A stretch of 36,394 nucleotides of DNA, taken from positions 115,090 to 151,483 of the forward strand of contig WELB01000041.1 of assembly GCA_009602725.1 (NCBI GenBank). The letters are read 5' to 3'. Within the stretch, counting starts at the first letter, position 1, and each line of letters begins with the position of its first letter. Source of the stretch: Spirogloea muscicola. Its lineage: Eukaryota; Streptophyta; Zygnematophyceae; Spirogloeales; Spirogloeaceae. This document shows, piece by piece, positions 111 through 36,394 of the stretch. The notes below the pieces were generated by a model. That model saw only the letters and a program-made list of their open reading frames with translations. It was not told the DNA's origin and did not search any database. A program made the position numbers and the translations under genes.

Positions 111-1529
111 ATGAACGACTCAGAGGTGTCCAAGCAGGTGGCGCAGATGGTGCAATTCATCCGCCAGGAGGCGGAGGAGAAGGCCAACGAGATCTCCGTC
201 GCCGCCGAGGAGGTGCGCACTCAGCGGCCTCCCTCTCTTCCCGCTGCCGTCGCCGCCACTGCTGCCGCCGCCGCTGCTGTGGCCGCCCACGTCAAGGAGC
301 CCCATGTTGCTCGCATGCCCCCGGCTCGCGTGCAGGAGTTCAACATTGAGAAGCTGCAGCTGGTGGAGGCGGAGAAGCGCAAGATCCGCGCCGAGTTCGA
401 GCGCAAGGAGAAGCAGGTCGACGTCCGCAAGAAGATGTGAGCCCTCGCCTGGGCTGACCCTCGATGCGCCGGCTGCCGCTCCGGTGGCCTGGCCCCGCCT
501 ATGAAGCGCCGCTTCCCTGGGCCCCAACAATTGGTCGTGTTGTCGTTCAGCTGCAATGCAAGACCGTCTTGCTGGCTGCTTCTTCTTCATCGCGGGCCAC
601 TTTGGGCTGAGCTGAGTCTTCCCTATCTACCCCCGTTCGCAGCGACTACTCCACGCAGCTCAATGCATCGCGACTCAAGGTCCTCCAGGCGCAGGACGAC
701 ATTGTGCGGCACATGAAGGAAGAGGCCGAGAAGAAGCTCCAGAGTGTCGCTGATGACTCTGAGGCCTATGGGCGCCTCCTCAAGGGGCTCATCCTCCAGG
801 TCGGACCCAGCATCAGCTTCTTCCTGTGCAGTTTGACTTGTCAAACCGAGTTCGCATTTGCTACTGTGGCTGACCTCCAGCAGAAATTGATGCTTGCTGG
901 CTGGCCTTCTTCTCCTGCGTCACAGGGCTTGGACCGCTTGAGCGAGTCCGCCGTCCAGCTGAGGTGCCGGGAGGATGACCTGAAGCTTGTCCAGGCGGCA
1001 GTCCAGGCAGCCAAGGCTGACTATGCCTCTGCCAAGATGACGGAACCGCCAAGTATTGCAGTCGACACCGCCAACTTCCTTGCCCTGTCCTCTATTGGTG
1101 GTGCAGCTGGCACGACCTGGTGAGTCTGTTTGGGATGTCATGGGTCTGAACCATGTGTTATAGGTCTTTCACTGAGTTTTGGCACCACCAAATTGCTGCT
1201 CTTTGCTCTGTGACGCTGTTGATGAACCCTCTATATTTGTGGCAGCTCGGGTGGCGTCGTCATGGCGTCCAAGGATGGCAAGATTGTCTGCATCAACACA
1301 CTCGACGCAAGACTGGACATTGTCTACAAGCAGAACCTTCCCGCGGTAAGGCCGGCACACAGTGGAGCCATTTGTTGGTAATCACTGTCTTGGTCTTCTG
1401 TACCAAATGAAATTCTTTCGCAGCTCTGGCCAGCTTCTCCTGTTACTTAGTTGGTGATGCTGAAAGAAGCTCATCGGAATGGCTGTGCAGATTCGGAAGC
1501 AGATGTTCAAGACTTCCATTGTCACCTAA
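111..1529 (+). CDS. VHA-E: V-type proton ATPase subunit E (six exons)
   Basis: Exons are 111-212, 336-436, 643-799, 926-1119, 1246-1345 and 1491-1529, joining in phase to a 230-residue protein; the family is usually about 226-230. Subunit E is a peripheral-stalk component of the V1 sector of the endomembrane proton pump and, with subunit G, holds the catalytic head. The N-terminal half is the expected charged helix: MNDSEVSKQVAQMVQFIRQE, then FNIEKLQLVEAEKRKIR and KEKQVDVRKK. The conserved core ASRLKVLQAQDD follows. The C-terminal half has RCREDDLKLVQ, AVDT and CSGGVVMASKDGKIVCINTL, and ends KTSIVT-stop. The ATG at 111 matches the family N-terminus. Donors are all GT (GTGCGC, GTGAGC, GTCGGA, GTGAGT, GTAAGG) and acceptors all AG. 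No defects are seen. The first two exons are much richer in GC than the later ones. Confidence 0.95.
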
Positions 1530-2724: not shown

Positions 2725-5700
2725 TCATACTGTGTCAGGGGTCCTCATGTGCCGCGCTAAATAACTGCGGGAGCAGGTCTGGCCGAGGGCAAGGTCCAGG
2801 GATGGCCGGGGGATGTCAGTGCAGAGCTTGAGGAGCAACAATACCCTCTCCCTCCCACGAGGGCTGCCTTCAGAAGTCATCTTCAGCAATAGCTGCACGG
2901 CCCCTGACTCCTGCATATGCGCCTTAAAGCGTACATTGCCCTTTCCCAGCTGCAAGTTGCCAGCATATAGCAAGTCAAGACATCATACACTGTCAAAGCA
3001 GCCTTGCAAAGTACCCCCAGAGGCTGAAATGAAAGAGAACATTGTGGATTGATTCTATCTGAAATGTGAGAAGGCAAGCGTGAAAGGTTGGACTGACGCA
3101 TGCACAATGCGATCAAGATATGACAATTGACTGTCCAGCTGCACACAATAACACCCACTCACCTGCAAGAGAATCGCCACAGCTGCTTGACGAATATCAA
3201 CATTCTCAGACTTCAAAACTTTCATGATCACACCCATGCCTCCAGCATCCATGATCGCAGTCCGACCGTCAGTGCTGGCTGCTAGATTGGCTGCAAGGTA
3301 CCCAACCATGCTTATTAACATATGCTACAACCGTGTACAAGCTGATGCTCAGCTTTGATATGCATCTTCATGTACTCAGCACAGCAGTCTGCCAAGATGC
3401 CCAACTTTGTAACAGGCTGAAGAAGAAACAAAGAATCATTGGCAATCGTGGACCTGTAGGGAAAAGACTGATTTCCTACACACTCACCCAGGATGATCAT
3501 GGCGTGTGTCAAGAGCGAGTCCGGGGCTGCCCATCGATTGGTCAGCATACAAGGTCGATCAGTTGATTGCCTTGACAGATGGCATTGCATATGCAATGAG
3601 ATGTAAGGCAAAGTCCATCTACGATATGAGAGACTCCTAAAACAGGACCAAGGACATGCAAAGCGTGAAGGTGTAGAGGGAGGTTCCAAGGGACCCACCT
3701 AGAGATGGTCTTGTGGAAGTTGCCCTGCTAACAGTCGCCAACAACTGGGGCACAAGACCTGCTCTTACAAGCTTCCCTTTGTGGATCTGTGCAAAGGTAA
3801 TGACAAGGTAATTGATTGTGATCAATATGGTAGTCAAGGCCAGGCTGGTGTAAACAAACAAAGGGAACCGAAGAGTACATGACACATGCAACCATTGGGA
3901 AGTAGATAGCAGAACATAATCACATTCAGCAACCCTGATGCAGCCAATGAGGTTGGTCAGGTGAGATGCTGCCTCAGGCTGACTGCAACAGTTCATGGAT
4001 GCCAAAGTCACCTGGTTATGGGAGAGCTTATGCAGGGCCCTGATGCAGTCTTTGTGAGCCCTGGGACCACCGGTGATGAGAACTTGCACCAAGGGAGGAA
4101 TGGCCCCCGCAGATCCAATCATCAGTCGATTATCCTCTGACTGCAACGAGCAGAAGAGCAAGTAATATTGGTGAGCCAGTACAGAGACAGAGGAGCGATA
4201 CTTCTTTTGTATCTCAATCAATACCCTGATACCTTGCTGACCACTCTTTGCAAGTAAGCTTGCATGCTGTGTCCCCAAGGTATGCTGGCAGTAGGTATGC
4301 AGCAATGCAGGAGGGGTGGTGTACGGTCTGCTGACCTGGCAGAGGCTGAAAATTGCTCCAGCAGCATGTTCTTGCACCTCAGTGTCAGAGCACTTCAGAG
4401 CTTGCACAAGAATTGGGACGGCACCAGCTTCCGGTAGCAAGCGTTTATTCTGGTCATCAATCGATATATTGACGATGGCCGCAGCTGCATTTACCATGAC
4501 TTCACGGTGCGGAACATTCAGCAGTTGCACCAGGATGCCTAGAATGACTGAAGCACCAAGGACAGCACGATTCTTGGCACTGTGTTTGACAAGGCGCCGG
4601 ACTTCTCCTGCAGCCCAGGCCTGTCATGCGTGGAAACACACAGCAACAATGAGAACAACTGAGGTTGCCTTTAGTACAAGCCACAACTACAATCTGCACA
4701 TAAGCTGGCAAGATGGCAATGACCAGAATCTAGACATGATTGTATGTCAGTATAGATGCCAAAATGAGGAGACAAATAGGTGATGAAATGCAAGTACCTG
4801 ATTGTCAGGGTCCTCATAGTCACTGAGGCACACAAATAAGTCCTCAATGTCGTTGTCAGTCACGTCCTTCACCTGCTGGTCTTCTAGTCCACCCATCGAG
4901 ACAGTCCTGGGTAAAGGACTCCTTGAGGATGAGGCAGGTGAAGCTATGGAGCTCTCCGAGCATCGGCTGGTGTCGCTAGAGAGACCAATGTCTGAATACG
5001 ATCGGCGTGAGTGGCCTCGCTGGTGAGCGGGCTGCAGGCAATGTGATGAACAATGTGTCAGAGCGTTGAATGAGACTACGTCGTGCAGTGTGCCTTGACA
5101 TGAAAACCACAGCTGCGCAGACATTGTTTGGGCATCAGCAGACTGAGGATTCGGTCAGGCTTGGCTGGGCTCTGACCTGCCCTGCATGTCGCACCATGAC
5201 GTGGCCAGCGTGATCAGGAGGGTGGACGCTGACGGTGAAACTTGCTGGTGATGAGAGAGGGGAGTCTTCTGGGATGGAGGGCGAGGTTGGGTATGAGGAC
5301 GAGTCCGGAGAGCTCCCACCGCTGTCGACTTCCGCACACCGGACAAAGTGCGGGAACCTGTCCCTACGAACATTCTCCACCCTGCCTGCATCTCTTGTCC
5401 CGGAGCCATCGTCGCACGTGACAGTGCCCTGCAAGGTCAACTCGTCCAGCCTCTGCACATGGATGGCTGGATCTGACCTTCCTGTTCCACACTTCCTGTC
5501 GTCCAGACCATATTCGGAGGGTGGGTGCGGAAGAGGGACGCCATGCTCCTCGCACCAGCCAGCAATCATAGCTTTCACTGTGTAGTTTGGCACAACGCTC
5601 ATGCTTGTGAGCGGTTGCCTCGTCTTTGGACACGTAGTGTTGCCTTGAGCAAGCCATGCCTCGATGCATCTGCAAGAGCGCGAGGCAAAAACCATCAATG

Positions 5701-7506: not shown

Positions 7507-9511
7507 ATGGATGGCCTCACGGTGCCGATCCTCCGCACGCGTTGGCCAGACCACTGTGTCCCGTGCCGTGGCGGGCCCATCACGCGCCGCGCTGTCATTT
7601 CACCAGCCCCATGCCGGCTTCTCGCGCCGGCAGCGGCTGCCGCGCCCCCGGTGGCGCGCGACCTCCTCTGGTGGACAGGGGGTGATCAGGTGGAGGTCCT
7701 GCAGTCCCGCTCGGGCACGCGGCAAGGGGACCCCCTCGCCGGCTTCTTCTTTGCGCTCGCGCACAACCGGGCTCTGCAGGCTACCGCTGCGGCCCACCCA
7801 GGAGTCCTTCTTCCCACCTACGCGGACGACACCACCATCGTCGGCCCCTCCGGAAGACGTGGCGGCGGCCTTCGTTACTTTCACGCAGCAGCTGGCCACC
7901 CTCGGCCTGACCATCCGGCCGGCGAAGTGCGCGGCTTGGTCCCCTGGCGTGATCCTACCCACCCTGGCGCTGCCCCCGGGCTGCCGGACTCCGGCAGACG
8001 GCTTCACCCTCCTGGGAGTCCCCATCGGCACGCCAGCCTTCGTGGAGGGGCAGCTGCGAGCCCGCCTCGCGGAGCACCTTCAGCCCGCGGCCCGGCTCCC
8101 CGAGCTGGAGGATATGCAGCTGTCCTTGGCCATGCTGACCAAGGCCATCGGGCAGCGGCCCCAGTACTTGACGCGGGCCACCCCGCCGTCCCCAGAGGCA
8201 TTGGCGGCGTACGCGACTTTCGACGCGGGCATGGTGGCGAGCTTGGCGGCCCTGGTCCGCCACCAGGGCTTCCCCCAGTCGCCAGCCGCTATCCACCAGG
8301 CGGCGCTACCCATCAGCCACGGGGGTCTCGGCCTGCGCCCGCTCGTCCGCTCATGCCGGGCTGCATACCTCGGCAGCTGGGCGCAGACTGCCGCCTCCGT
8401 GGCTCAGCGCTTCATGGTCCATGGCCGGCGTGCACTGGAGCAGGCGGTGGTGGAGGTGGACAAAGGCGCGCTGCCGTTCCAGGTGGCGCTTCGCACCGCC
8501 CACCAGGAGCTGCTCGCGGCGCACCCCGACATGGCCGGCCAGGCGGTCTCCTTTGCGCACCTCGCGCACACCGCTGACCTGCGCGTCCAAGCGCGCTTCG
8601 CGGCCGTCGTCGACAAGGCCGCCTACACCACCGCCGTGCTGCAGCTTCCTGAGGCTGACCTGCGCGGGCGCGCGAGACTACATTCGGCCTCCTCCCCGGG
8701 GGCAGCGGCGTGGCTCCAGGCACTCCCCATCACTGACGCCCTGACCCTCCCAGATGAGGTGTTTCGCACTGCCGTCCACCGGCTCCTGGGGCTGCCGCCT
8801 CCATGCCTCCAGGGCGTGCGTCAATGCCAGTGTGGCGAGCGAGGGGCCAAGCCTGGCGAGCTGGCTGCTCAAGTCCTGCGCTGTTCCCATGGCGGCGAGA
8901 GGACGGCGGCCCACGACCGCCTCCGGGACGCGATGCACAGCATCCTGGTGGAGGCTGGCTTCGCGGTGGCAGCGGAGCACTCCGGCGTCATGCCGCTCCA
9001 GGCCAGGGCCGACGGTCTCCACGCTCGTCGCGTCGACCTGGTGGCCACCCCACAGGCCGGCGGGCCACGTCTGCTTCTGGATGTGGTGACTACCGACGCA
9101 TTTGACCGCTCCCACTCAGCCCAGTCTGCCACCAAGGCTGGGTATGCGGTCGCCTGCGCCGCTCGGGCAAAAGAGATCAAGTACGCCGACCATCCACCGG
9201 AAGACGAGTTCTTCCCGTTGGCAATTGACATCCATGGGGCACTGGGCGCTCGGTGGCTTGAGCTACTTAACCAGCTCGCCCGCCACGCAATCGCCCGTCG
9301 CTTCCATGGTAAACCGGTAGACTTTCCTGCAGCCGGGTCGCTGGCGCAAGTGTATCGCATGCGCTTGGCCGTCTCGCTGCAGACGTCCATGGCCCGTGCG
9401 CTGCACCTTCGTGCCGGGAGAGCCCTCGCTGCTGCCTCTGGCTCTGTCCAGGGGACCCACTTCCAGGACCCTAGCCTCTCTGATTTGCGGCTGCTTAGCA
9501 GGGGTTACTGA
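7507..9511 (+). pseudogene. Broken reverse transcriptase with restriction-like endonuclease-like C-terminus
   Basis: One frame (codons at 7507+3n) carries the RT motif SGTRQGDPLAGFFFAL and the catalytic box YADD at 7819-7830. After about 7835 the homology continues in the next frame (AAAFVTFTQQLATLGLTIRP), so there is a frameshift (net +1 or -2) just after the active site. The second frame stays open to 9511. It holds a Cys/His cluster (RQCQCG at about 8819-8836, then RCSHGG, then HDRL), RVDL (about 9029-9040), LLLDVVTT (Asp at 9080) and AKEIKY. That order resembles the Cys-His finger plus PD-(D/E)xK endonuclease of R2-like LINEs; this assignment is inference. The protein ends SDLRLLSRGY-stop. 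An apparently open frame from 6902 is composition, not a real N-terminus. The element is probably inactive. Confidence 0.72.
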
Positions 9512-9526
9512 GTAATTTGTAGCTGC
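9487..9526 (+). other. Stem-loop around the LINE stop codon
   Basis: GCGGCTGC (9487-9494) can pair with GTAGCTGC (9519-9526): eight pairs, two of them G-U. The loop holds the last codons and TGA. The same arms occur in the copy at 23.4 kb. In the 14.9 kb copy, element-sense GGCTGC can pair with GTAGCC after a short length change in the loop. Confidence 0.5.
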
Positions 9527-9609
9527 TTTCTTTCTTTGTGTGCTTTGGTTTCTTAGCGCTTCCTCTGGCTTCCTCTGGCCCCCTTCTCGTTCTTTGTTCA
9601 TTCTTTTTT

Positions 9610-9628
9610 GGGCTGGCTTGTCCAGCCC
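9610..9628 (+). other. 3' UTR hairpin GGGCTGG...CCAGCCC
   Basis: Perfect 7-bp arms (9610-9616 and 9622-9628) enclose a 5-base loop. It is preceded by TTCATTCTTTTTT and followed by CAATGGGCGAGC. This is the reference copy for a module seen about 25 times in the window. Confidence 0.8.
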
Positions 9629-11082
9629 CTATCCTCAATGGGCGAGCCCTTTCTTCTGATCTCTTTCGAGTGCTTCTTGAATCCCCCCTGCCTTCTGCCA
9701 TCGACCAGCTTTACCTCACCGTCTGCGTACGCATCGTCCCCGTCGTCCGCATGGGTCTGGCAGCCCTGATTGGACTTCGACAAAATTAAAGGGCATCGCC
9801 ACTGTATGCTTGCTGCTTTAAATCATTTGCTGCATGCGACCCTCACAGGCTCTACCATCCAGCGCAAAAGTGATGTGGCCAACGTGAGTCTGTTGAGAAA
9901 CTGTTGCTCATCAAAAGGTCGGTGTGCGTTGTCTAAGCGTGCAGTCTCTTTTGTCAACGTCCATGAAGTGCCTCAAATTTGATTTGCAGGGGCACTCTTT
10001 CTATTCGCAATAATCAGAAGTATGTCTGTCCCTGGCAGTGCTTGTCTTGACTAAACAAAACAAGCTCCTCATTGCCATAGCTAAAGTTTGCCCATCCTTC
10101 ACTGATCCACTTACTCCTCTGGCTTTACTTGATGAATGCATTCATCACACGTCCAAAAAGAGCCACTGACCCGTCATCGAGAGGGACAAAAGTCTGCAGT
10201 ATGTTCTTGTGCTTATCCCTGAAGAGACAACTTCACTTTATTGAGCGTAGCGTGTACAAGTAACTCCTTTTAGGAACAAAATTATTTCTGTGGAGACAAC
10301 CGGTGGCACTTCTGTGATATTCCGCAATCAATCCTCTTGCATTCTGATTACATACGACCACTAAACAGTGTTTGTGGATGAATGCGAAGTGTTGGCCACT
10401 CAGGGCATCCATTACTTAAGACACTACCCTGGCATGGTGTCGATTATCCCTCCTTTTGGATCCACGTCTGTCTTATGATCGGCTTGACTTGTAAAGTGCA
10501 TTCGTGAGCAGTGTTTGTCTTACATGCCATACAGATCGTTATCAATTTTCTAATTCAAAAAATGATGCCTTCCAGCAGTAGCAGCAGAAAGATCTGTGCA
10601 AGTGACGAAGTTCGTCAAGCTTTTATAAATCCAGTCGCTATGGCTTTCAAGATCATGTTGGCATTCATCATACAGCTCATACCAGGCATGATCAGCAACA
10701 AGAAGATTACCAACTACAGCATATTGCATGCTATCCTCTTCATCCATGCTCGACACCCGTCAGGTATGAGTTGCTCTCCTAGAGCCAGACCGCTTGAAGT
10801 TGTAGCAGTATGCATCATGCATCCTCCCTCTACTTGAGAAGGTCGTCTCTTTTCTACTGTTAAGCAATTCAAATGACCAAAGACACTCTTCAAAGTACAA
10901 GTACTACTGTGAAGCGAAGCTTAGACCTTCTCTAATAGCAAGAACGCAAGTGACTGGCGCTGTGGTGTATTCTCGAGCTATATTGATGTGATGGATGCAC
11001 TGTCTTTATACAACAAGCTCAATGTCGGCCCACCTTCTTGGATGCAGTAGTATCTCCATGCCTTATGTCCACAATTGAGTAA

Positions 11083-11162
11083 CCTCAGGGAGAGTACCTC
11101 AGGACTCACATATTTGAGAACCCCTCAGGGAGAGTACCTCAGGACTCACATATTTGAGAACC
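11083..11162. repeat. Perfect 40-bp tandem duplication
   Basis: Two identical copies (11083-11122 and 11123-11162) begin CCTCAGGGAGAGTACCTCAG and end TTTGAGAACC. Identity is complete, so the duplication is recent, or the unit is conserved. Confidence 0.9.
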
Positions 11163-11694
11163 CAGAGTGCTGCTTCTGGACCATTCCAATCTCTCTAAGA
11201 CATGCTCAACATCCTCCCCACCTTCAAGACGTCTAGGCTTATCCCCTCATCTGCTGGTATACTCTCCAACAGGTTGGGCCTGCCATCCATGCCACCACTC
11301 TTGAGGGGAGCTACTTTTTCTCGGCTACAGCACTTCGCATTTCTTAGACCTCTGTGCAGGCACTTGAGCAATACTGACCAGTCACTTATGACGTACAAAC
11401 GTGGCGAGGGTGCAGAGCGCGTGTCTGGGTAATGTAGTGCAATGCGTCAACAACTTCTTGTCTGCTTATGCAATGCATTGGATCTCAGGCTTGATATTGC
11501 AGTCGAGCCTGCAGGGGTACTTCGTCAGCGTTCAAGGGAAACTTCCTCAGTCCAGGACGGATGTGAAAGAGAGACCCATTGTGCTCCTCAAGGTGCCTGT
11601 CTGCCACGGACAACATGTTTGGGCACGAGCCTGTGTACTGATAGATGCTCCTCCTCTGTTGCACAATCATAGACCACAATTGCTCGTGAAGTAT

Positions 11695-12339: not shown

Positions 12340-12795
12340 GCTGAATAGAGAAAGAGAAGAATCTTTGATGACGGGGGCAATGGCTGCGAAGGGCCAGCCC
12401 AAGAAGACGAAAGAGGTCTGAGCACGAGCTTGAAGAACGTGTATAAACAGCTCCTTCACCGTAAGGCAATGGCTTCGAGAGGCCAGCCCACAAGGAGTTA
12501 ACAAGGTCCGAAGAGGGCCAGAGAGAATGGTGCTGCTGATCGTAAGGGGAGATTGTCGTGTATTTGCAACAAACAAAGGCCTAAGGCCAAGTACAAGGCA
12601 AGCAAATTTAGAGACGTACATCACCTACAGCAGATTGACTCGCTCAGTAATCACGGGTCAATACATAAAGGTCACAAATCGATGCCTGAATGCTAGATGG
12701 CAGATACGAAGCCCTTCTGCCACTAACTAGAGCTTGCCCAGCTTACTGGTGCAAAGCATTAACCTGAGCACGTTGCAAATAGGCCGAAACGCGTC
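12340..12795 (-). mobile_element. LINE 3'-end remnant (SDLYVL family) with two hairpin modules
   Basis: Read on the minus strand, about 12795 to 12640 is the 3' end of a LINE ORF finishing C-D-L-Y-V-L-T-R-D-Y-stop. A stem-loop (arms 12634-12642 and 12654-12662, one mismatch) surrounds the stop. Downstream on the same strand lie two copies of the GGCTG...CAGCC hairpin module, at about 12459-12500 and 12366-12400. The sequence aligns base by base by eye with 24280-24440 and 36095-36340. Confidence 0.7.
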
Positions 12796-12829: not shown

Positions 12830-13260
12830 CGGCTTTGAGATGAACAGCTCTACGAATGTACCGCAATGGCTGTGAGAGGCCAGCCCAAATGAATGAATGA
12901 ACAAGGTCTTAAAGAGCCGGATGCGCCAAAAACCGGACAAATCACAATCCATGACTTCAACGAATAGAAGCTAGCCGAGTGCATGCAGAGGGAATACGGA
13001 ACAAGTACGCGGAGCCGTCAGGCTGGGCAACAGGGCTCTCTCTCAGAAGAAGGAAGGAAGACTCTTCCAATAGTGGGCGATGGCTGTGATTGGCCAGCCC
13101 AGAAAAAGGAATGGACAGTATTCGAAGGGGCCAGAAAAGTGCTAAACCCCGTGTCAGCCGTAGGAAGTCAGATAAGCCCTGATCACATCGCACTTTGTTC
13201 ATTCGTTTTTTGGAGCTGGCCTCTCCCAGCCACCGCCCTCTACTGCAAACGTCTTCCTTA
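12830..13260. mobile_element. Nested hairpin modules and a decayed LINE tail
   Basis: Minus-strand hairpin modules lie at about 12860-12905 and 13075-13115. A decayed minus-strand tail, SDFLRLTRGL, lies at about 13178-13149, with the Tyr-stop replaced. A plus-strand module (TTGTTCATTCGTTTTTTGG followed by CTGG...CCAG) lies at about 13196-13235. Several insertions seem to be stacked here. Confidence 0.6.
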
Positions 13261-13394
13261 GATAAGCTGAGGAGAAAAGGGCCACCAGCAAACTCGCGGG
13301 CTAGGAGTGGCAGCCCGGCGAGGTGCCCCGTTAGCGGAGCTGCTTTGGGCTCCTCTGTGCGCGGGGGTATGTAGAGTATGTATTGAGGGATGGA

Positions 13395-14835: not shown

Positions 14836-14872
14836 CCGAAAGTGTCGATTGCGGCCGGGAGGAGGTGGTCGG

Positions 14873-15010
14873 AGAAGAGAGGGGCTGGCAGAAGCCAGCC
14901 AAAAAAGAATGGACAAAATCCAAAGAGGCTACAGGAGAATCACTCAGTAATCTCTGCTAAGCAGCCGCAGGTCGGAGAGGCTAGGCTCGTTGAAGTGGGT
15001 CACCTTTGCC
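14873..15010 (-). mobile_element. Short 5'-truncated copy of the SDLRLL-family LINE
   Basis: The minus strand reads THFNEPSLSDLRLLSRDY-stop (stop at 14946-14944), matching the end of the 7.5-9.66 kb element. The 3' UTR continues to a hairpin GGCTGGC-AGAA-GCCAGCC (about 14881-14898) in the expected place. Only the last few dozen bases of the ORF are present. Confidence 0.75.
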
Positions 15011-15059: not shown

Positions 15060-15535
15060 CCCATGCTGTGCTTCAATCCTCCGCCAAAGAGAGAAGGCGC
15101 GCGGGGCGCATGAATTGAAAGGGAGGCCAATTCAAGCCAATACATTGTTCAGGCAGAGTCGAGTGCAGACTAAACAATGCTACATGATACGGAGACCTAA
15201 TCTAAGGTACCTAAGATGACATTAGTACCCACGGGTGAGCACAAACAAATCTGACAAGCTAACTTGGGGAGCTGGAGCGCCGCCACGAAAGCCGGAGGCC
15301 TGACTTAGAGCGCAAAGAGAACGGCGAGCGGTGCGCCTGAACAGTGTACTGGCTTGGGCTTGGCACCGCGCGCCTTCTCTTCCTCTGCCCCCCCTGCCGT
15401 CCGATCAGAGGGTGCCGCTGCCGCCCCGATGCCCGTGGACGAGGAGGCCTTCCAAAGAAGAAGAAAGTGCTCGCCCATTGAGAATAGGGGCTGGAAATGC
15501 CAGCCCAAAAAAGAATCAACAAAGGACGAAACTGG
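15060..15535. mobile_element. Nested non-autonomous element pieces (heads, tail, hairpin)
   Basis: A minus-strand head block (GCGCCCCGCGCGCCTTCTC, reverse complement, about 15085-15165) lies beside a minus-strand tail SDLFVLTRGY-stop (15254-15222). A plus-strand head follows at about 15340-15385 (TGAACAGTGTACTGGCTTGG then CACCGCGCGCCTTCTC). A minus-strand hairpin lies at 15488-15506 (GGGCTGG-AAATG-CCAGCCC). Orientation changes show serial insertion. Confidence 0.65.
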
Positions 15536-15624
15536 TGAAAATGGCGCGGAGTCGCTCACCATCGTGGTTGAAGAAACGCGGCAGCCGGTCGATGGCGGGC
15601 CCTTGCCCCCCACGACGTCGCGTG

Positions 15625-15870: not shown

Positions 15871-16163
15871 GGCCGAGGCCTCCCTGTCGCCGGCGCCAGG
15901 TGCGCCGGGGAGACGTCGCTTCCACCGGCCCCTGGCCGGCTGGGGATGGCAGGTTGGCTCCCTCCTGTTCGCCCCGGCCCCCCGCGCCCCCCCTAACCCT
16001 AGCGGCCGCCGCCGCCGCCGCCGCCGCCGGCGCCCTTGGCGGCCCGCTCGAGGCCGCAGCCTGCCGGCTCTCGCGGCGCGCAGCGTGGAAGGAGCGCCGC
16101 GAGCGCGGTCGGAGCGCGGCCCACGCGGCTGCAGGCCGCTGCCGCCGCCCAAGCCAACGCGGG
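15871..16163 (+). promoter_or_regulatory. GC-rich 5' region of the receptor kinase
   Basis: GC-rich DNA with a run of about eight CCG/GCC triplets (16005-16030) directly upstream of the ATG at 16164. It presumably contains the promoter and 5' UTR. No TATA box was recognised. Confidence 0.4.
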
Positions 16164-19100
16164 ATGGCTCGGAAGTGGCCGCCGACGCTCGCCTTGGCTG
16201 CTGTGGCTGTGGCGAGCATCGTCTCTGCGGCGCTGTCACAGCCGACCAACCCGCCAGGTCTGCTACACTGGCACGGCTTCGTGGCATTGGCGGGCCATGG
16301 CGGGCTGCACATCCACAGTGATGAGCACATCACTGAAGCTCACCATCACGGCCATGTGCTGCGCTTCATTCGTCTGACCAGCAGCCGCGCGAAGTTAGCT
16401 CACATCCCCATCACGGTGGCTCACAAATGTGCAGGCTTCATCAGCATAGACTGCGGCCACAATTCGGGCAACTACCCTGTGGGCAACATCATTTGGTTAG
16501 ATGATCAGGACTACACTGGTGGAACGATTGGGCCTCTTATCAAGACGCCCACTGACCAGGCGTTCATGGAGGCCACAATACGTATCTTCCCAAGTGGCAT
16601 AAAGGGCTGCTACAATATCCCTATCACTGAGCCCACTCGCTACTATGTGCGGCTCACCCATTGGTACTACAACTATGACTCTCTGGGCGCGCCTCCAATT
16701 TTCAACATTTCTCTTGGGAACACGTTTGTCTACCAGAACGTCATGGACGACGTATCTATCAACACGCTAGAGTTCATATACAATGCCAACACGTCAGTGT
16801 ACATCTGTCTGCTGAAGGTGTGCATAAGCTGCTGTGTCAATCACAACCTTTTGACTTGCCATCCGTTCTGCTTCTCAGACAGAGTGCGTGCATCCTTACG
16901 CTGACATTGCTGTAGAAAGGCTGTGCTAAACAATGTTTAGGTGTCCCTCACAATCTATAGACTTCAGGGCAACAGTGACAGAGCCAAGACTCATAGACAG
17001 AGTTTCGCGTCTGCCTGGCTTTTGTTGGAGTGTCCGGGAAACTGTTGGGTCATTGTATTATTGCTGCTTCTCCCATGGTGAGTGCGTCATGGAGCCCTAG
17101 AGTGCTCATCTGATGTTAGTAGCTTGCCTCTCTTCAGGTCAAAGAAGTTCCTGTCATCAGTGGTCTTGAGCTTCGCAACCTCACTTCTGCGAGCTACAAC
17201 AATTCCGCTTACAGTGACCAGATACTTTCCATGTGGTTTCGCTTGAATTGCGGGTCTAATATTGCCGATTCCAGTGGGGACGTCAAGTATCCAAGTGACC
17301 CTCTGGATCGCATTTGGAGTCCCGATGCCTCACAGTATGGGAACATCGACATCGAGCCAGCGGACAAGCTCGTTGCTTTGCATATTGCAAAGAACCTTAC
17401 GGGCACTTTTGGCCCTCCAGATGACATTCCAGCATTTATCATCAACACTGCCCGCTCTGTGGCTGAACCAGGCCAAAGCCTTAATTACACCTTCAATGAT
17501 TTGAGCTCTCCTGCAACCTACATCATATACCTCTACTTTGCCGAGATTGAGGAGGGGGTTGTTGCTGGTTCGCGCATCTTTGATGTACGGCTTAATGGGC
17601 AGACGGTGGCCAGTAAGTTGTTCTCATACCATGGCCCTCTTCTTCCCAGCAAGTCTGCAGCAGGAAGTCTTCTCTGAATACTCGCCCCTCAATGTCGCAG
17701 ATGCCTTGACTAAACCCAGATCCTTGGCAATGGAAGTCCGGTGCAATGCTGTTCACAAAATTCACATTTTGTTTGACATGCTGTTCTGCATTGATTCTAA
17801 ATTACTGGTCCTGAACAGTAGCCTTGTACTCGGTCAGGTGGCGTGGACATCTATGCCAGGGTGGGGAAGAACACGCTGCTTTCCCTGTCTTTCACGGTCA
17901 GACTTGAGGAGCTCATGTTCATTGTCCTGGAGCTCAAACCCGTAGGGAAGTCGAAGCCTGTGATCAGTGGCATTGACCTAGAACAGCTTGTCCCTTTGGC
18001 CAATACGACAAGCTCTTTAGATGGTATGTTTGCTTAGCGTACTTTTTCCACTTACTCTTGCAAGTTGGACTAGCCTGCATGGCATACTTGTATCTTGTGG
18101 TAAAAACGCGCAGCTCTTCAACAGTCACACCCTAGGTTGATGTGCATGGAGGTATCAACGACTTGGAGACAATGCTTGTAGTTTGTCACACCCAGTACAA
18201 CCTTCTTGACCTGAAGTTGCCAGCTTGGCTGACCGTTCTATATTGACAACATCAAAAGAGAGAAGAGCATGAAGGAGTAATTGTTATACTTGGACTCTTA
18301 TCTCATGCAGCACAAGCGCTTCAGGATGCATACATCGCATGGAGTAAGCCTGCACAATTGCAAGACTGGATGGGGGATCCATGTGAACCTTACCCCTGGT
18401 CGGGCGCTTCTTGCAACTTCAGCACGACTCCTTATAGAGTCAATGGCCTGTGAGTTCAGCGTTTGTTGCCATGCCCTTCGCCATAGTAGCTACTAAGCCA
18501 AGCTTTGCAGCTTTTGCACTGGTGCTTCTGGTGCCAGCTTTGTCTTCTGGATCAAGTCACTGGTCGCAGACCTCTGACATCTCAATTCTGGAGGGTTTTG
18601 CTACCTATGGAGGTAGCAATAGCAAAAGCTTCAGCCCTGACTTTTATATGCTTGGACGCAATACAGGAATCTCAGCAGCTACAAACTAAGCGGCGGTGTT
18701 CCACCTGCACTTGTGAATTTGACTCAGCTGAAGAGCCTGTGAGTTTTCCATCACATATGTTCTCTCACTATTTGAGAGCTACTACACCCTTAAGCAGTTG
18801 GTGATGTATCAGTCAAGCGCTTTATGCTTCTGCCAAGCTGTGCTTTGCTTCATAAACAGCAGGCAAGTACCACATCTGCAAATTGCTGCATCTAGTACTA
18901 TCTTTTGACCTATACTTAGACCTGAATGTTGGTGTGTCAGCTTTCTCGATAACAACTACCTCACTGGACCTATTCCCGGAGCTCTTGGTAGCTTACCACA
19001 GCTGAAGACTCTGTAAGCTGAAGCTGGGCTCCCTGCTTAGGCTCTCATTTGCCCATCATGTTCTTCTTTAGGGCTGTTGAATGAATTGTTGTCAAGGCGT

Positions 19101-22069
19101 TCTAGGTGGTGGCTCCACATACTCATCAGGAAGCTTCAATTTGTAGGAGCTAAGCAGAAGCTAGGCAAGCCAGAAGCTATGTCTGCACATACAAGCTTGA
19201 TTCCAGACTCTCTTCTGTTTATCTTGGCAATATGCAGCGAGCTGCAGAACAATGCATTGAGTGGCTCAGTCCCTCCGGAGCTCTTCACTTCAAGAAGCCT
19301 GACAAGAATGTGAGTGGGAAGAGGTCTAGGAAGACTGTAGCAGTCACATTGGCAATGATCTTGATTAGCTGGCAGATTCTTCCAGTGATCTTGTGTGGCC
19401 ATCAAAGCTGTTGCTGATGTTAGGCATTAGGGTGGCTCACTTTCAAGTCATTGTTGATATTCCGATGCAGAGATCTCAGCAACAACCGCCTCAATGGCTC
19501 AATTACAAATAGGAGTAATCCTGGTGTCACTGTCTTGTAAGCACTAAAGCAACCTCCACTGTCCAATATGTGATGCACGTGCATGTATGATAACAGAGTC
19601 ACCTCATAAGTTGTATCCTGCAAGTTTGTCAAACTACTAGTTCAATAGTCTTAACATTTTGGAACTCGATTGTCATCCAGGCTCGATGGAAATGCTGGGC
19701 TTTGCTCGACAGTAGCAGGATACAACCTGCAAAATTGCAGTGCCACACCTTCTGGAAGTCCTCCCATGGTGGCACCAACCAGCAGCAAGAGCAGTAACAC
19801 CGCTGTCATCGCAGGAGTAGTTTGTGGTGGCCTTGCTGTGTTTGCTATCCTCTGTGGAGCCATCATCGTCTGGCTTCTTCGTACGAAGAAGAATCGCAAC
19901 ATGTCGAGTGTCATTGGATCGTCATCTCCAGGCACAAGTACACTCTTTGGATCCAAGCTTCTGGATGTTGTTGCTCCTTATGGCTCGAGTTGCTCTATTA
20001 GAGGGAACTTGACTTGGAGTGGAATGTTGTTGCAGGCTGACAGCTTGGTTGTGTATGCATTTGAAATTGCAATTGACAATCAATGCAATTTTCTCCTGAT
20101 CTTTTGCATCCCTCTGCTCTTTGGTTGCGTGTTTCTTTTGAATTGCTCTTCAACGCCCAGCAGACCCCAGTGAAGCTAGTCTAGGATAGAGCCATGTTCA
20201 AACATGCTCACAGCATTACATCTTCTGACTATTTTGTTGTGCTGTGCCAATCCATCCCTACAACAGCTGAATGGGAGAAGCCCAAGGAAGGCGTTGTCAT
20301 TCCCAATGGGCCTGGGGGTACGATTGCTGCCGTCAAAGGTGGTCATATGGCACGCCAATTTTGCCTTGAGGAAATGAATGTGGCGGCAGGAGGTTTCATG
20401 CCAATCAATCAAATAGGAGTTGGTGGATTTGGAGGCGTCTGGAAAGGCACTCTCCCAGATGGCACTGTGGTTGCTATCAAGAAACGCTCTGGCAACTCTA
20501 TGCAAGGCCAGCGGGAGTTCTATAATGAGGTAGGCATTGTGAAGTCTGAGCTACTATCTAATCTCTGCACCAGGTGTGCAGACAACAAATCTAATGCATG
20601 CTGACAGTGAGGACCTGAAAGCAATTGTTTCGCCGTGCAGGTGGAGCTTCTTTCACGCGTCCATCACAGACATCTGGTGAGCTTGATGGGCTTCTGCAAT
20701 GAGAACGAACAGCAAATTTTGGTGTACGAATACATGTCATTTGGGACAGTTCGTGACCATCTGTATGGTAAGTGGGCTTGCTCAGTACTGCAAGGCAGTA
20801 AAGCTTCTGAGACCTACCATTGCTTGTCTCCATCTTCATGTGCATTATGCTCATAAGGTTGTTAGTGCAGTCAACTGTAAGATTTACTTGCAGACTAAGG
20901 CCACAGATGTTCCTGTATCCTTGGCAGATAATGCCAGTAATCCCCTGGGTCAGTTGGAGTGGAGTCAACGTCTCAACATTGCACTCGGCGCTGCCAAAGG
21001 TGTGTATTGTATCTGGACCTTTGCTGCCCATATGAGGCAAGCACTGACAGTCTTATAAGATTTCTGGTGCCTAACAGGTCTGTACCTTTTGGTTGCCATG
21101 TTACTAGTGACCATAGTCTGTTGCTGCATTGGCCAGGCATTGAGTACCTGCACACTGGGAGCAACCCTTCGATCATTCATCGTGATATAAAGACAAGCAA
21201 CATCTTGTTGGATGACAAGCTGGTTGCTAAGGTTGCTGATTTCGGTCTGTCAAAGACTGGACCTAATGAAGAAGGTGGACAAACGCATGTCTCCACAATG
21301 GTCAAGGGCACCGCTGGCTACCTTGACCCCGAGTAAGCCTCAAATGCTGTTCCCCATTGCTGAATGCAGCTGCCCAGGATGAACCTATGTACTCATCGAA
21401 TCTCCATACATCCTGGATGATCATTGTCCAGAAGGACTTATGTCACAGCCCAATGCAGCTGCCAAGAGCAAAACCTATCGTATTTCTCACTTTTTACACC
21501 TGGATTGTGACTGTACAATTATGCTCTGCACTGTCACTGACCTCGGACGGACGCCTGCAGGTACTACACCATCCAGCAGTTGACCGATAAAAGCGATGTC
21601 TACAGCTTCGGCGTGGTGCTCCTTGAACTTATCACTGGCCGTGAGCCCATAAATTTGAATAGGCCTCGTCCGGAGTGGAGTTTGGTGGAATGGGTGAGCT
21701 CTCTGAGCAACTGTTTAACAGTGTTGACCCATACTGATCTCTCTATCACATCACTCTCATCACACTCATCACACTCACCATGTTGTGCAGGCTCGTCCAA
21801 ATTTGCAAAGAGGCAATCTCAAGGGCATTGTTGACCCAACACTAGGAGAGGACTACTCCTTGGAAGCAATGTGGAAGGTAGCAGAAGTAGGCATCATGTG
21901 CGTGGAGCCTGTGGGAGACAATCGGCCATCAATGAGCGACGTTGTGAAGGAGCTGAAAGAAGCTGCCTCTATTGAGCTTGGAGGCAATCGCAGCAGAGGC
22001 ACTTCCAATGTCACCTTCTCAGACTCGGCAGCTTCTGACCCCGAAGTGATTGTTGTGGAGGCGAGGTGA
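16164..22069 (+). CDS. Malectin-like LRR receptor-like protein kinase (16 exons)
   Basis: Exons: 16164-16257, 16435-16817, 17138-17612, 17838-18023, 18311-18449, 18667-18738, 18941-19012, 19238-19309, 19471-19536, 19681-19937, 20267-20529, 20641-20767, 20928-20999, 21137-21332, 21561-21693, 21791-22069; 961 residues. Order: signal peptide (1 to about 26), malectin-like ectodomain (about 32-380, opening GFISIDCG), GDPC motif ([11 protein letters not shown]), LRRs from about 425 to 519 ([20 protein letters not shown]), TM helix (about 561-586), kinase. Three LRR exons are exactly 72 bases, phase 2, as in plant LRR kinases. Kinase landmarks: [11 protein letters not shown] (656-666), VAIKK (Lys677), HRDIKTSN (774-781), DFG (794-796), [11 protein letters not shown]. 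It is an RD kinase with all key residues, so probably active Ser/Thr signalling at the plasma membrane. It resembles land-plant LRR-I/malectin kinases. The exon 10 donor (A|GTACAC) is the least certain junction. Ligand unknown. Confidence 0.9.
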
Positions 22070-22700: not shown

Positions 22701-23090
22701 CACTTTTCTACGCACCGCGCGCCTTCTCTCTCTATTTCTTGGAGTAGCTGGTCGAAGCGGCTGGCCGAGCAGGGGCCAGGCAGGGGCTGCGGGGCAGCGG
22801 CGGGCAGCAACGTGATCTGAGGTGCAGCGCCAATGGAGGGGGGTTAGGGTGCAACGGCAGAAGGAACAGCTCTGTCAATGTAAGGTGGCTGTGAGTGGTA
22901 AGCTCATCCAAAGGGGGCGAGGGCTGTGAGAGGCCAGCTCAAAGAAAGAAAGAAAAGAGAATGTGGCTGCTATACTGAATGAGCGGCTATGAGAAGCCAG
23001 CCAGATGCATACATGTTTATGACGGAGCCACAGTCTAGGTAGACTAGGCTAGCCTCAAAGGAGTGAACAAGGTCTGAAAGGACCGGAAGT
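22700..23090. mobile_element. Repeat cluster: head block and hairpin modules
   Basis: A plus-strand head block fragment (CTACGCACCGCGCGCCTTCT, about 22709-22730) is followed by minus-strand hairpin modules at about 22865-22905, 22912-22945 (GGGCTGTGAGAGGCCAGCTC) and 22980-23005. Next comes a stretch (GCCAGCCAGATGCATACA..., 22993-23040) that recurs at 24925-24970. Confidence 0.6.
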
Positions 23091-23535
23091 CATGTTGGCC
23101 CCTTCGAACCTTCGTCAATTCTTTTCGGGCTGGCTTTTCACAGCTCGGTGGCTCGAGCTGCTCACCCAGCTCGCCCGCCATACCATCGCCCGTCGCTTTC
23201 ATGGGGAGCCAGTAGACTTTCCTGCAGCCGGGTCGGTGGCGCAAGTGTATCGTATGCGCCTGGCAGTCTCGCTGCAGAGGTCTATGGCCCGCGCGCTGCA
23301 CCTTCGTGCCGGCAGAGCCCTCGCTGCTGCCTCTGGCTCTGGCCAGGGGACCCACTTCCAGGAGCCTAGCATCTCTGATCTGCGGCTGCTTAGCAGGGGT
23401 TACTGAGTGATTCGTAGCTGCTTTGTGTCTTTGTGTGATTGTTTTCTTCGCGCTTCCCCTGGCCCCCTTCTCGTTCTCTGTTCTTTTTTGGGCTGGCTTT
23501 TCCAGCCCCTATCCTCAATGGGCGAGCACTTGCTT
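23091..23535 (+). mobile_element. 5'-truncated SDLRLL-family LINE copy fused to a foreign tail
   Basis: From about 23146 to 23406 the last 86 codons of the LINE ORF are open, from RWLELLTQLARHTIARRFHG to SDLRLLSRGY-stop. Comparing residues by eye gives 8 differences from the 9.25-9.51 kb copy. The 3' UTR and hairpin (23490-23508, perfect 7-bp arms) follow. Just upstream, 23105-23145 is a partial hairpin module (TTCTTTTCGGGCTGGCTTTT) that ends where the ORF begins, suggesting a fused or nested insertion. Confidence 0.8.
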
Positions 23536-23789
23536 GTCAAAGCCCTTGCCCTCTGAAGTGCCACTTCTTCTCTGAAGTCGAGCCGGGCCCGCGCAGGGCC
23601 GAGGTTGCCGGGCCAGGGTCGCGACTCTCAGATTGGAAAGCCAGAGAAGAAGATACAGAGAAAGGTGCACGACGCACATTTACGAGGCTAAGCCGAGCCA
23701 ACTTCTATTTACGCAAATAACGACTGAAGTGCAAAGAATGGGATACAGGGATTTCTTCCAGGAGAGTAAGAAGAGAGAAAGAATGGCTG

Positions 23790-24059: not shown

Positions 24060-24260
24060 CAGATAGGGGGAGGGCTATCAAAGGACAGCCCACAATAAAA
24101 GGTAGGAGAGAGGCCAGCCCAAGAAGAAGTAGCAGCTCTTCCGAAGGGGGCGGAGGGCTGTGAGGGTATAGAGCTCTTCCCAAGAGGGGGCGATCGCTGT
24201 GAAAGGCCAGCTCGAGAGAGAGAGCCCAAGAGAGAGGAGTTGCCTCCAAAGAGCAATTTT
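24060..24260 (-). mobile_element. Three consecutive hairpin modules
   Basis: Modules lie at about 24064-24100, 24140-24170 and 24180-24215, each introduced by AGCTCTTCC-like sequence and GGGGGCG. The hairpins vary (GGGCTATCAAAGGACAGCCC is a variant), which shows independent decay. Confidence 0.55.
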
Positions 24261-24470: not shown

Positions 24471-24649
24471 ATAAGTGAAATTTTTCCACCGTAAGCCAGC
24501 GGCTCCGCAAGTGGCGAGTGCAAATGGTGCCCCTAGGAAGTAAAGAAGCCACCAGTCAATCTGGCCGCGCTTTCTTCTTTCTCCAAGAAGAAGAACCTTA
24601 GGCACCTTGATTTCGGTTTCCGTATTATGTAGCCCTGTTTAGTTTGCTC

Positions 24650-24790
24650 TAGACTCTGCCTGAACAATGTATCGGCTTGAATTGGCCTCCGTTTCATTTC
24701 ATGCGCCTCGCGCGCCTTCTCTCTTTCTCCAAGAAGCAGCTCTCACAGGTGGGGCGGGGGGCTGTGGAAGGCCAGCCAACAAAATTACGG
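24650..24790. mobile_element. Head block (+) followed by a hairpin module (-)
   Basis: 24652-24725 is the fullest plus-strand head block: CTGCCTGAACAATGTATCGG, TTGAATTGGCCTCC, then GCGCCTCGCGCGCCTTCTC. A hairpin module (GGGGGCTGTGGAAGGCCAGC) follows at about 24757-24780. Confidence 0.65.
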
Positions 24791-24919: not shown

Positions 24920-25405
24920 AAACTGCCAGCCAGATGCATACAGGTGTTCATGACGGAGCCAAAGGCTAGGCAGACAGGGCGCCCTCAATACCCCCGTGTC
25001 AGCAGTAGGAAGTCAGATGAGCTGAGGGGAGGAAGAGCAACCCCGCTACGCGAACCAGAGGCTGCTGCAAGGGCGCGACCAGCCCGGCGAAGCAATCGCC
25101 TGGGACCGCTGTAGGCACATAGAAAAACGCATTCAGTAGAAGGATATATAGCAGGAAAAAAAGACCCGAAGGCACCGAGCCACCGGGAAGGGCTGCACCC
25201 AAAACGACAGGCCCAGGAGCAGCACGAGAACGGCCGTGGAAGAGCGGACACGGGAGGGCACGCGGCGCCAGGGGCCCCCGACCGGCTTGCGGCCGTGGCG
25301 GGCCACGGCGGATGAAGGGAAAGCTCTTCCAATGAGAATGAGAGAAGGCGCGCAGGGCGCATAAAATGAAATGGAGGCCAGTTCCAATGAAAGCCAATGG
25401 CTGTG
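24920..25405 (-). mobile_element. Non-autonomous element: head block to SDFLLLTRGY tail
   Basis: Read on the minus strand, a head block at 25405-25340 (CCTCCATTTCATTTTATGCG, then CCCTGCGCGCCTTCTC) is followed by about 320 bases of GC-rich body and the tail SDFLLLTRGY-stop (25017-24985). Downstream lies CTGGCAGTTTACAGCC, a decayed hairpin. This is one of the best candidates for a complete head-body-tail unit. Confidence 0.6.
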
Positions 25406-25407
25406 AC

Positions 25408-25535
25408 TATTCAGACTTGCATCCACTGACTAGAGGTTACTGAGCGTCCCCTTGCTGATGTGCTGGTACTTAGCACTCCGGCTCCTTCAGACCTTGTCCA
25501 TTCCTTTGGGCTGGCCCCTCCCAGCCACCAGTCAA
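25408..25535 (+). mobile_element. LINE-type tail SDLHPLTRGY with hairpin module
   Basis: The plus strand reads SDLHPLTRGY-stop at 25411-25443. A module follows at about 25493-25530: CCTTGTCCATTCC, then GGGCTGG...CCAGCC. The tail-to-hairpin spacing is shorter than in the 7.5-9.66 kb element. Confidence 0.65.
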
Positions 25536-25599
25536 TGTGGCCGCGCTTTCTTCTTGTGAGAGGCCAGGTCGACGGAGTGTACAAGAAGGGAGCATCTCG

Positions 25600-25850
25600 C
25601 CAAGAGGGCGAGGGCTGTGAAAGAAAGTGGCTCTCTCATTGGGGGGCTGTGGAAAGCCAGCCGGAAAGAGAGCACAAGGGTCCGAAGGGGCCGGAAGGCG
25701 CACATGGCAGGATACTCCATACTCCATGGATGGGGCGCGGCCGAAGGTGGCGCTGGTGGGAAGAAAGTGCTCGCCCATTGAGAATAGGGGCTGGAATAAC
25801 CAGCCCGAAAAAGAATGAACAGAGTACGAGAAGGGGGCCAGGAGAAGGGG
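25600..25850 (-). mobile_element. Three minus-strand hairpin modules
   Basis: Modules lie at about 25605-25625 (partial), 25640-25670 and 25765-25840. The last has perfect arms, GGGCTGG-AATAA-CCAGCCC, with flanks GCTCGCCCATTGAGAAT and GAATGAACAGAGTACGAGA. They end just before the F-box gene's GC-rich 5' region. Confidence 0.65.
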
Positions 25851-25987: not shown

Positions 25988-26323
25988 NNNNNNNNNNNNN
26001 NNNNNNNNNNNNNNNNNNNNNNNNNNNNNNNNNNNNNNNNNNNNNNNNNNNNNNNNNNNNNNNNNNNNNNNNNNNNNNNNNNNNNNNNNNNNNNNNNNNN
26101 NNNNNNNNNNNNNNNNNNNNNNNNNNNNNNNNNNNNNNNNNNNNNNNNNNNNNNNNNNNNNNNNNNNNNNNNNNNNNNNNNNNNNNNNNNNNNNNNNNNN
26201 NNNNNNNNNNNNNNNNNNNNNNNNNNNNNNNNNNNNNNNNNNNNNNNNNNNNNNNNNNNNNNNNNNNNNNNNNNNNNNNNNNNNNNNNNNNNNNNNNNNN
26301 NNNNNNNNNNNNNNNNNNNNNNN
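25988..26323. other. Assembly gap (336 N)
   Basis: A run of 336 undetermined bases, flanked on both sides by very GC-rich sequence. The true gap length may differ. It removes the 5' end of the F-box gene. Confidence 0.99.
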
Positions 26324-35224: not shown

Positions 35225-35445
35225 GCGTGTCCGTAACAGGAAGTCAGATGAGTGAAGGGAGGCATAGCTGGAGGGGGAGGGTAGCGAGGTTGGCTGCCGT
35301 GGGCAGTGGGTGGGTGGCGGCGCAATTCCATTTCTGCATGCTGACCTCCCGCTGCCACCGCCCCCTTCGCGCGAGAGAAGGCACGCGGTGCGCATAAATA
35401 AAAGGGTGGCCAAATCTAGAAATACACTGTTCAGTGCAAAAAGTT
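35225..35445 (-). mobile_element. Non-autonomous element: head block to decayed SDFLL tail
   Basis: Minus strand: a head block at 35440-35365 (ACTGAACAGTGTATTTCTAG, TTTATGCGCACCGCG, TGCCTTCTC) is followed by about 120 bases and the decayed tail SSDFLLRT at about 35252-35229. Same order as 25405-24985. Confidence 0.6.
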
Positions 35446-35769: not shown

Positions 35770-36075
35770 TACAGTATCATGCGCACCGCGCGCTTTACCT
35801 CTTCCTCTGGCCCCTTTGTCCGCTTTTCCTGCCCCGAGTTACTCTGATTTGCTGTTGCTCACACGTGGATTCTGAGCATCCATCTGCATCTCCCTCTGCA
35901 CCGTCTTGCACTTAGTAGTGTAGTCCTTTTTCGGCACTTCTTTCTTTGGCTTTGAACATTGTCCATTCTTTTTGGGTTGGCTTTGCCAGCCCCTCTTCTC
36001 AATGGGCGGGCACTATCTTCTTTGTCAATTCTTTTCGGGCTGGCTTTTCCACAGCCCTTGCCCTCATGGGAAAGA
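35770..36075 (+). mobile_element. Non-autonomous element: head, SDLLLLTRGF tail, tandem hairpin pair
   Basis: Plus strand, in order: head block fragment ATCATGCGCACCGCGCGCTT (about 35777-35796), tail SDLLLLTRGF-stop (35843-35875), hairpin 1 (arms 35974-35980 and 35986-35992, one G-U pair), CAATGGGCGGGCACT, then hairpin 2 (arms 36037-36042 and 36052-36057). All three signature blocks in one orientation within about 300 bases make this the most compact candidate unit. Confidence 0.7.
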
Positions 36076-36394
36076 GATCGTGTATTAGAAAGAAATGTAG
36101 GCCAAATGGCCAGGTACAAAGGCAAGCACATCTAAAATCTACATAACCTACAGCAGATTGACCCGCTCAATAACCACGGGTCAAAACATAAAGGTCACTA
36201 CTCGATGCATGAATACTAGATGCCAGGAACGGAGCCCTTCTGCCACCTACTAGAGCTCGCCCAGCTTTCTGGTGCAAGGCACTAGCCTGAGCACGCTGCA
36301 AACAGGCCGAAACTCGACGTCGCAAGAGCGACAGATATGCAGCTGGCAAGCCCATCTCAGCCGGAAACACATCTGCGCGTCGAGTGTAGCCTAG
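36076..36394 (-). mobile_element. SDLYVL-family LINE 3' end, running off the window
   Basis: The minus strand from 36370 to 36167 encodes the LINE C-terminus in one open frame: PAAYLSLLRRRVSACLQRAQ, then ALHQKAGRAL, then SDLYVLTRGY-stop. Stem arms TTGACCCG (36158-36165) and CGGGTCAA (36177-36184) pair perfectly around the stop. The region QRAQASALHQKAGRAL is visibly related to SMARALHLRAGRAL of the 7.5-9.66 kb element, so the two families share a C-terminal domain. The element continues beyond base 36394. Confidence 0.75.

Follow-up and report, generated by a model that had tools for sequence, protein, structure and literature searches.

A hairpin-bearing 3' tail common to related LINEs of Spirogloea muscicola, with insertions nested in older tails

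A short GGGCTGG/CCAGCCC hairpin recurs in both orientations over 36,394 nucleotides of the Spirogloea muscicola genome (contig WELB01000041.1, positions 115,090 to 151,483; here called the window, to which all results apply). It very probably belongs to a conserved stretch of ~80 nt at the 3' end of the transcripts of several related LINE families, whose own protein most likely binds the hairpin and primes at a fixed distance 3' of it, some later copies being nested in older tails. There is good support for the module as a LINE 3' tail; directly observed are its copies, the homology of the ORF ends upstream, a shared 3' end and duplications flanking three inserts. Insertion into resident hairpins is likewise well supported in two cases.

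Results

Exact matches to GGGCTGG-N(3-8)-CAGCC amount to 15 strand-hits at 11 places, four of them palindromic and counted on both strands, against a mean of 0.07 and a maximum of 1 in 30 dinucleotide shuffles in one-kb blocks. With up to one mismatch the same control gives 35 against a mean of 4.8 (maximum 9), and with up to two mismatches 91 against 51.9 (maximum 70), the last being weak if taken alone; a pattern scan of the window for GGGCTGG-N5-CCAGCCC with up to three mismatches returned 17 matches where 4.0 were expected. A profile trained on 12 tails picked as un-nested detects 29 whole or half copies at E ≤ 0.05, nine on the plus and 20 on the minus strand, while 20 shuffles gave a mean of 0.05 matches (maximum 1). 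The first-pass annotation had proposed about 25 repeats in both orientations, and all 26 places that it listed are matched by the profile at this threshold, including the 14 outside the training set; the matches beyond these places are three half-tails (24133-24107 and 23088-23046 on the minus strand, 23532-23568 on the plus strand). Of the training tails, that at 25508 proved to be part of a weak third split pair and that at 24779 lies head to head with a tail of another family, and 3' ends, consensus strings and scores were all picked post hoc with the sequence already known. The window contains a run of N at 25988-26323.

Among 22 aligned copies, the exact 7-bp stem with a 5-nt loop is found in four (9610, 15488, 23490 and 25788) and an exact GGCTG-8 nt-CAGCC in nine, with nine variants. 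These four are among the copies listed earlier as perfect or near-perfect; 35974 retains seven pairs by way of one G-U. The copies listed as decayed are real matches, but some are split rather than merely decayed: only the second half is present near 22870, 24140 and 25605, and only the first half at 23110. Both the G-U variant (35974) and the shifted-arm variant (14881) fold as had been described; in the copy at 23874 the stem has a single G-U pair and one position left unpaired.

The conserved unit of ~80 nt reads ..CCTTGTTCATTC-TTTT-hairpin-21 to 29 nt and then the insert end, with a T/C-rich run 5' of the hairpin. Upstream of many copies lies a LINE ORF end with the signature SD[L/F]xxLxRG[Y/F]-stop, and a matrix scan recognises 12 such C-termini in the window, 11 scoring at least 29 and one decayed site 20.3, with the rest of the window at or below 14.3; the matrix was built from ten of the 12 scored ends and is hence partly circular, 13178 and 25405 being the non-seed sites. 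A same-strand hairpin follows 40-155 nt downstream of nine of the 12, one of which (24932) has a variant tail with a main-profile E of 1.3, so that in the window the module does not lie mostly away from retrotransposon tails. The hairpin is absent behind two LINE-2 ends, 14562 and 36167, and behind 15222, where the tail (15086-15215) offers a different candidate hairpin, GCGC-(3 nt)-GCGC. The latter tail represents another family, belonging to a related LINE (ORF end 15222), and is found at 15086-15215, 25334-25384 and 35373-35434 on the minus strand and 24656-24730 on the plus strand; it has a T-rich stretch and no GGGCTGG hairpin, and some partial copies start just before the GCGC.

That part of the initial proposal which puts the module at the 3' end of retrotransposons is borne out by its position in their 3' UTR. 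The other part, a structure recognised by a single reverse transcriptase and borrowed by other elements, is not supported: the upstream ORF ends are homologous, the LINE-A protein matching the copy that ends at 14565 with 39% identity (E 1.5e-11), and because of this homology common descent suffices for the shared tail and a borrowed cassette is superfluous. The LINE-A copies at 9248-9655 and 23143-23535 are 87.5% identical and have the tail in common. From the homology of the ORF ends we infer that the LINE families share the tail by descent.

Table 1. Tails, inserts and half-tails in the window.
Feature	Position	Strand	Basis and remarks
Decayed LINE-A ORF	7666..9511	+	RT fragment in frame 1 (to ~7851), then frame 2 to C-terminus ..SDLRLLSRGY-stop; 5' limit provisional; C-terminus score 41.9; three-frame translation
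Type A tail of LINE-A, hairpin 9610-9628	9578..9658	+	profile E 1.4e-19, training copy
Type B tail of LINE-2 (ORF end 12644), hairpin at 12489	12442..12521	-	profile, C-terminus scan
Type B tail, hairpin at 12400	12353..12426	-	profile
Type B tail, hairpin at 12886	12839..12920	-	profile
Tail of decayed LINE (ORF end near 13140, ..SDFLRLTRGL), hairpin at 13100	13053..13135	-	profile, C-terminus scan
Bare-tail insert, 82 nt, hairpin at 13213	13178..13259	+	duplication scan, joined flanks
Tail with shifted 7-bp stem GGCTGGC/GCCAGCC, 42 nt past ORF end ..SDLRLLSRDY-stop	14857..14932	-	profile, fold, C-terminus scan
Type A tail, hairpin 15488-15506	15459..15538	-	profile, fold
First half (profile 4-53) of resident tail split by LINE-A	23095..23144	+	E 5.1e-9; join test
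5'-truncated LINE-A with type A tail (hairpin 23490-23508), inside resident hairpin	23145..23531	+	similarity to LINE-A, profile, duplication
Second half (profile 42-78) of resident tail split by LINE-A	23532..23568	+	E 0.033; join test
First half (profile 2-45) of second split tail	23046..23088	-	E 1.2e-4
Second half (profile 43-84) of second split tail	22860..22898	-	E 0.003; join score 41.0
Insert in second split tail, with two other tails	22899-23045		position between halves 22860..22898 and 23046..23088
Tail of LINE-2 copy (ORF end 24350), 3' end against half-hairpin	24172..24222	-	profile, C-terminus scan
Lone second half (profile 45-79)	24131..24165	-	E 0.0075
Lone first half (profile 22-49)	24107..24133	-	E 4.7e-4
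Tail, 3' end against half-hairpin	25619..25696	-	two profiles
Lone second half (profile 44-83)	25584..25623	-	E 0.0023
Short LINE copy (ORF end 25443), tail 25477-25555	25407..25555	+	tail E 8.5e-17, training copy
Weak opposite-strand tail halves flanking 25407..25555	25586-25555 and 25406-25382	-	E 2.0 and 0.19
Bare type A tail insert, 80-83 nt	25761..25843	-	duplication scan
Type A-like tail (GGGTTGG/CCAGCCC) of LINE ending ..SDLLLLTRGF-stop at 35875	35950..36021	+	profile, fold, C-terminus scan
Next tail, hairpin at 36037; uninterrupted relative of tail split at 23095/23532	36020..36076	+	profile, sequence

At the seven junctions read (25806, 13213, 23490, 22940, 24210, 25664 and 35974) the insert 3' end lies 21-29 nt past the 3' arm, some of these ends being ambiguous by a few bases. 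The distance to the insert end is thus near-fixed, and insert boundaries in the window are related to the module. Target-site duplications of 18-21, 8 and 12 nt bound three inserts. That around 25761-25843 is CCCACCAGCGCC[A/C]CCTTC, 18 nt with 17 identical or 21 nt counting CTT, and its score of 18 was reached by none of 20 control flanks. The insert at 13178-13259 is bounded by the 8-nt AGATAAGC at 13170-13177 and 13260-13267, which is statistically weak, its score being reached by 3 of 20 controls; the insert breaks the end of an opposite-strand LINE ORF, and the joined flanks read ..FLLSLSDFLRLTRGL. At 23145-23531 the duplication (23133-23144 and 23532-23543) is 12 nt long with 10 of 12 identical, and equals the overlap of the two profile halves (positions 42-53). 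The duplication scan, with an upstream reach of 700 nt, gave nothing convincing for 19 of 21 tails, including this 12-nt case, and the 25508 tail, for which no duplication is claimed, scored no lower than 13213. Truncated 5' ends, a constant 3' end and duplications of variable length (18-21, 12 and a weak 8 nt) are a hallmark of LINEs, and a conserved 3' UTR stem-loop at a near-fixed distance from the insert end is one of LINEs of the stringent type; both are seen here.

One decayed copy, LINE-A, appears to encode the reverse transcriptase that defines a LINE, through a fragment matching Pfam RVT_1 at E 5.6e-5. The match, at 23.4 bits, falls short of Pfam's curated threshold (29.6) and covers only part of the domain. 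This sole LINE protein is a broken ORF. Three-frame translation of its C-terminus gives C-x-C...C-x-H followed by RVDLV...LLDVVTTD...K, which by eye looks restriction-endonuclease-like; there was no Pfam, NCBIfam or PDB match to a PD-(D/E)XK-type nuclease or a zinc knuckle in this part. Comparison with solved structures returned nothing for the C-terminal part and one match for the RT fragment, a phage-capsid chain at E 0.81 that looks unrelated, and the predicted fold of the C-terminus (pLDDT 38, pTM 0.28) is too poor for use. Against viral_contigs the protein gave one 25-residue match (L001) and against genome_contigs none, the collections including no eukaryote set; in the same two collections the exact type A pattern has no match, and a 501-base piece around the hairpin has no phage match.

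The stem is the most constant part of the tail and is clearly conserved at the sequence level, with no evident selection on pairing. Over 22 sequences 89.0% of the cells of the 7-bp stem are paired; shuffles give 87.4%, with 86 of 500 reaching the observed value, and two pairs are changed on both sides against 1.2 in shuffles (111 of 500 as high), in a test of low power in that the stem hardly varies; RNAalifold keeps four pairs in the tails, none with a double change. The data thus show no excess of compensatory change in the stem. The minimum-energy fold holds the stem core, taken as at least three of the four GCTG bases paired to the 3' arm, in nine of the 12 folded tails of this group. The hairpin is embedded in a longer stem in the type A tails at 15506 and 35974, and at 9610 it is absent from the minimum-energy fold and present in the centroid only. 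The z-score is positive in four of 14 folds, 12 of these 14 tails belonging to this group. At Rfam gathering thresholds the tail matches no known RNA family, and a tRNA-derived SINE was rejected, ARAGORN (bacterial code) finding no tRNA gene.

Two tails are split by inserts that lie within the hairpin. When the halves 23095-23144 and 23532-23568 are joined, the profile score climbs from 30.6 to 44.8; when 23088-23046 is joined to 22898-22860, it climbs from 15.3 to 41.0, with equal or better joins only to an intact neighbouring tail; in the join test overall, the better-scoring joins were other tails or half-tails nearby. A third pair (25586-25555 and 25406-25382) is weak, with a join score of 19.2 exceeded at 66 of 1500 start points, and a fourth (24133/24042, join score 17.6) is unsupported and was dropped. 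The 3' ends near 24172 and 25619 each adjoin a lone second half. In seven half-tail matches at E ≤ 0.05 the inner end falls within profile positions 42-53, in the loop and 3' arm; of two partial matches off this pattern, 23003-22980 belongs to a different tail type and covers only 36-59, and 25696-25642 stops at 57 where another profile extends to 25619.

How far such landings exceed chance depends on the control. Insert 3' ends run into a half-hairpin in four of 26 cases at thresholds 8 and 9 and in three of 26 at threshold 10. Of 2000 randomisations, as many landings were reached, at thresholds 8, 9 and 10 respectively, in 184, 51 and 116 within a range of 300 nt, in 81, 22 and 45 within 600 nt, and in 16, 4 and 20 within 1500 nt. 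An initial test had marked eight of 26 flanks at p<0.05, some of which were intact downstream tails, and strong general self-targeting was given up after the stricter local test left four of 26. As a rule, landing in resident hairpins has modest statistical support and is no more than suggestive.

Two further arrangements were noted. At 24545-24582 a minus-strand LINE-2 copy has its 3' end against the second half of a minus-strand tail, and its 5' side seems to meet the second half-hairpin of a plus-strand tail, which is weak (profile E 1.1) yet 97% identical over 33 nt to the 25508 tail; this is perhaps a rearrangement in a palindrome. At 24727-24733 a plus-strand tail of another family and a minus-strand tail lie with their 3' ends head to head. 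Elsewhere the window holds likely host genes, namely armadillo-repeat and U-box pieces (3637-5698, minus strand), malectin-like domains (15900-17677, plus strand) accompanied by a weak kinase match at 20194-20604, and a V-ATPase E subunit fragment (704-1123, plus strand), as well as a 40-bp unit in two perfect tandem copies at 11083-11163.

Discussion

The tails are most readily understood as the 3' ends of LINE transcripts. Each would comprise a stretch of pyrimidines, then the GGCTG/CAGCC hairpin, of 7 bp in one type, and a final 21-29 nt up to the insert end. In LINEs of the stringent type the protein binds a 3' stem-loop (PMC4176376); here, by analogy, the LINE protein would bind the hairpin specifically and so select its own RNA. 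Target-primed reverse transcription would then begin from nicked DNA at a fixed distance 3' of the hairpin. Many copies are truncated at the 5' end, which often leaves the tail as the sole remnant. Some later copies have landed in older tails, two clearly inside the hairpin. Recognition of the hairpin RNA by the LINE protein is plausible, and is argued from analogy because compensatory change is no commoner than in shuffles.

Chance inverted repeats in G+C-rich DNA would fit the modest excess at two mismatches (91 vs 51.9), but are contradicted by the exact-pattern counts and by the profile, both set against shuffles, and we regard this origin as hardly credible. A DNA-level role for the hairpin, as a terminator, a protein-binding palindrome or a cruciform with no part in template choice, draws on the conservation of sequence in place of compensating pairs and on the T-run that adjoins the stem. 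On the RNA strand, however, that run precedes the stem on its 5' side, where an intrinsic terminator has its T-run 3', and the hairpin is fixed in position relative to the insert 3' end, downstream of a LINE ORF; such a role is in our judgement unlikely. Similarly unlikely is a SINE-like non-autonomous element of ~80 nt, made of the tail alone and mobilised by LINEs with a borrowed hairpin. It would account for the two duplication-flanked inserts, which have different tail types, are 82 nt and 80-83 nt long and begin 35 and 37 nt ahead of the hairpin. These are only two, however, and starts elsewhere differ as 5' truncation predicts: the similarity to LINE-A stops 23 nt (32 nt by profile) before the hairpin in the 15506 copy and ~50 nt before it in the 23892 copy. 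The two bare-tail inserts are the sole candidates for a non-autonomous element, 5' truncation accounts for them, and a casual look over the window noticed no such element in which a different body shares the tail.

We advance only tentatively the idea that one hairpin has two roles, as the mark on the RNA template for the LINE protein and as a preferred DNA landing site in older copies, with the LINEs nesting in one another's tails and the new 3' end joined in the loop; the element would then generate and disseminate the sites into which it inserts. Half-hairpins could instead stem from template jumping, or from slippage during replication, at the hairpin, with no insertion into resident ones; the 3' ends at 24165 and 25623 lie against a second half for which a search beyond the insert gave no first half, and the proposed pair 24133/24042 failed the join test. 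Both halves nevertheless flank an insert in 23095-23144/23532-23568, with its 12-nt duplication, and in 23088-23046/22898-22860, and we judge this origin less likely than not.

The reading as a LINE 3' tail would by itself define, for a plant-like genome, a group of LINEs with tail hairpins and provide a means to annotate its many tiny tail remnants. If resident hairpins do serve as landing sites, one sequence would link template recognition to target choice and explain the pile-up of tails. The resident hairpin itself as landing site is the possibly new element, nesting and plant LINE hairpin tails being already known; a narrow search of open-licence papers gave no earlier case among the matches listed.

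Among known systems, the L2-clade elements UnaL2 and ZfL2-1/ZfL2-2 resemble the present tails in having a 3' UTR stem-loop close to the RNA end. UnaL2 ends in TGTAA repeats (PMC3747384), whereas a simple terminal repeat is not seen here, and in ZfL2 specificity resides in the loop, while here the stem is most constant. LINEs with a restriction-like endonuclease (R2, R4, NeSL, CRE and Utopia) are mostly target-specific (PMC4640811); the possible likeness of LINE-A to them lies in its C-terminal motifs as read by eye, unmatched in Pfam, NCBIfam and PDB. A plant L1 lineage and maize SINEs have tails with a conserved 3'-end hairpin, a feature they share with the present tails and for which PMC3747384 proposes stringent recognition; their stems are variable and the structure is reported there as confirmed by stem changes, whereas the present stem is nearly invariant with no excess covariation. 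Zepp and ZeppL of green algae belong to the L1 clade and form centromeric or highly localised clusters, and the sections of PMC8226300 at hand mention no hairpin landing point; the present tails, unlike those clusters, comprise several families in both orientations in a window with genes. Those sections describe nested insertion of Zepp elements targeted to existing copies, giving arrays mostly of 3' ends; the two clear nested cases here are likewise insertions into existing copies. Should the landing-site reading hold, the tails of S. muscicola would offer a compact case for comparison with Zepp nesting.
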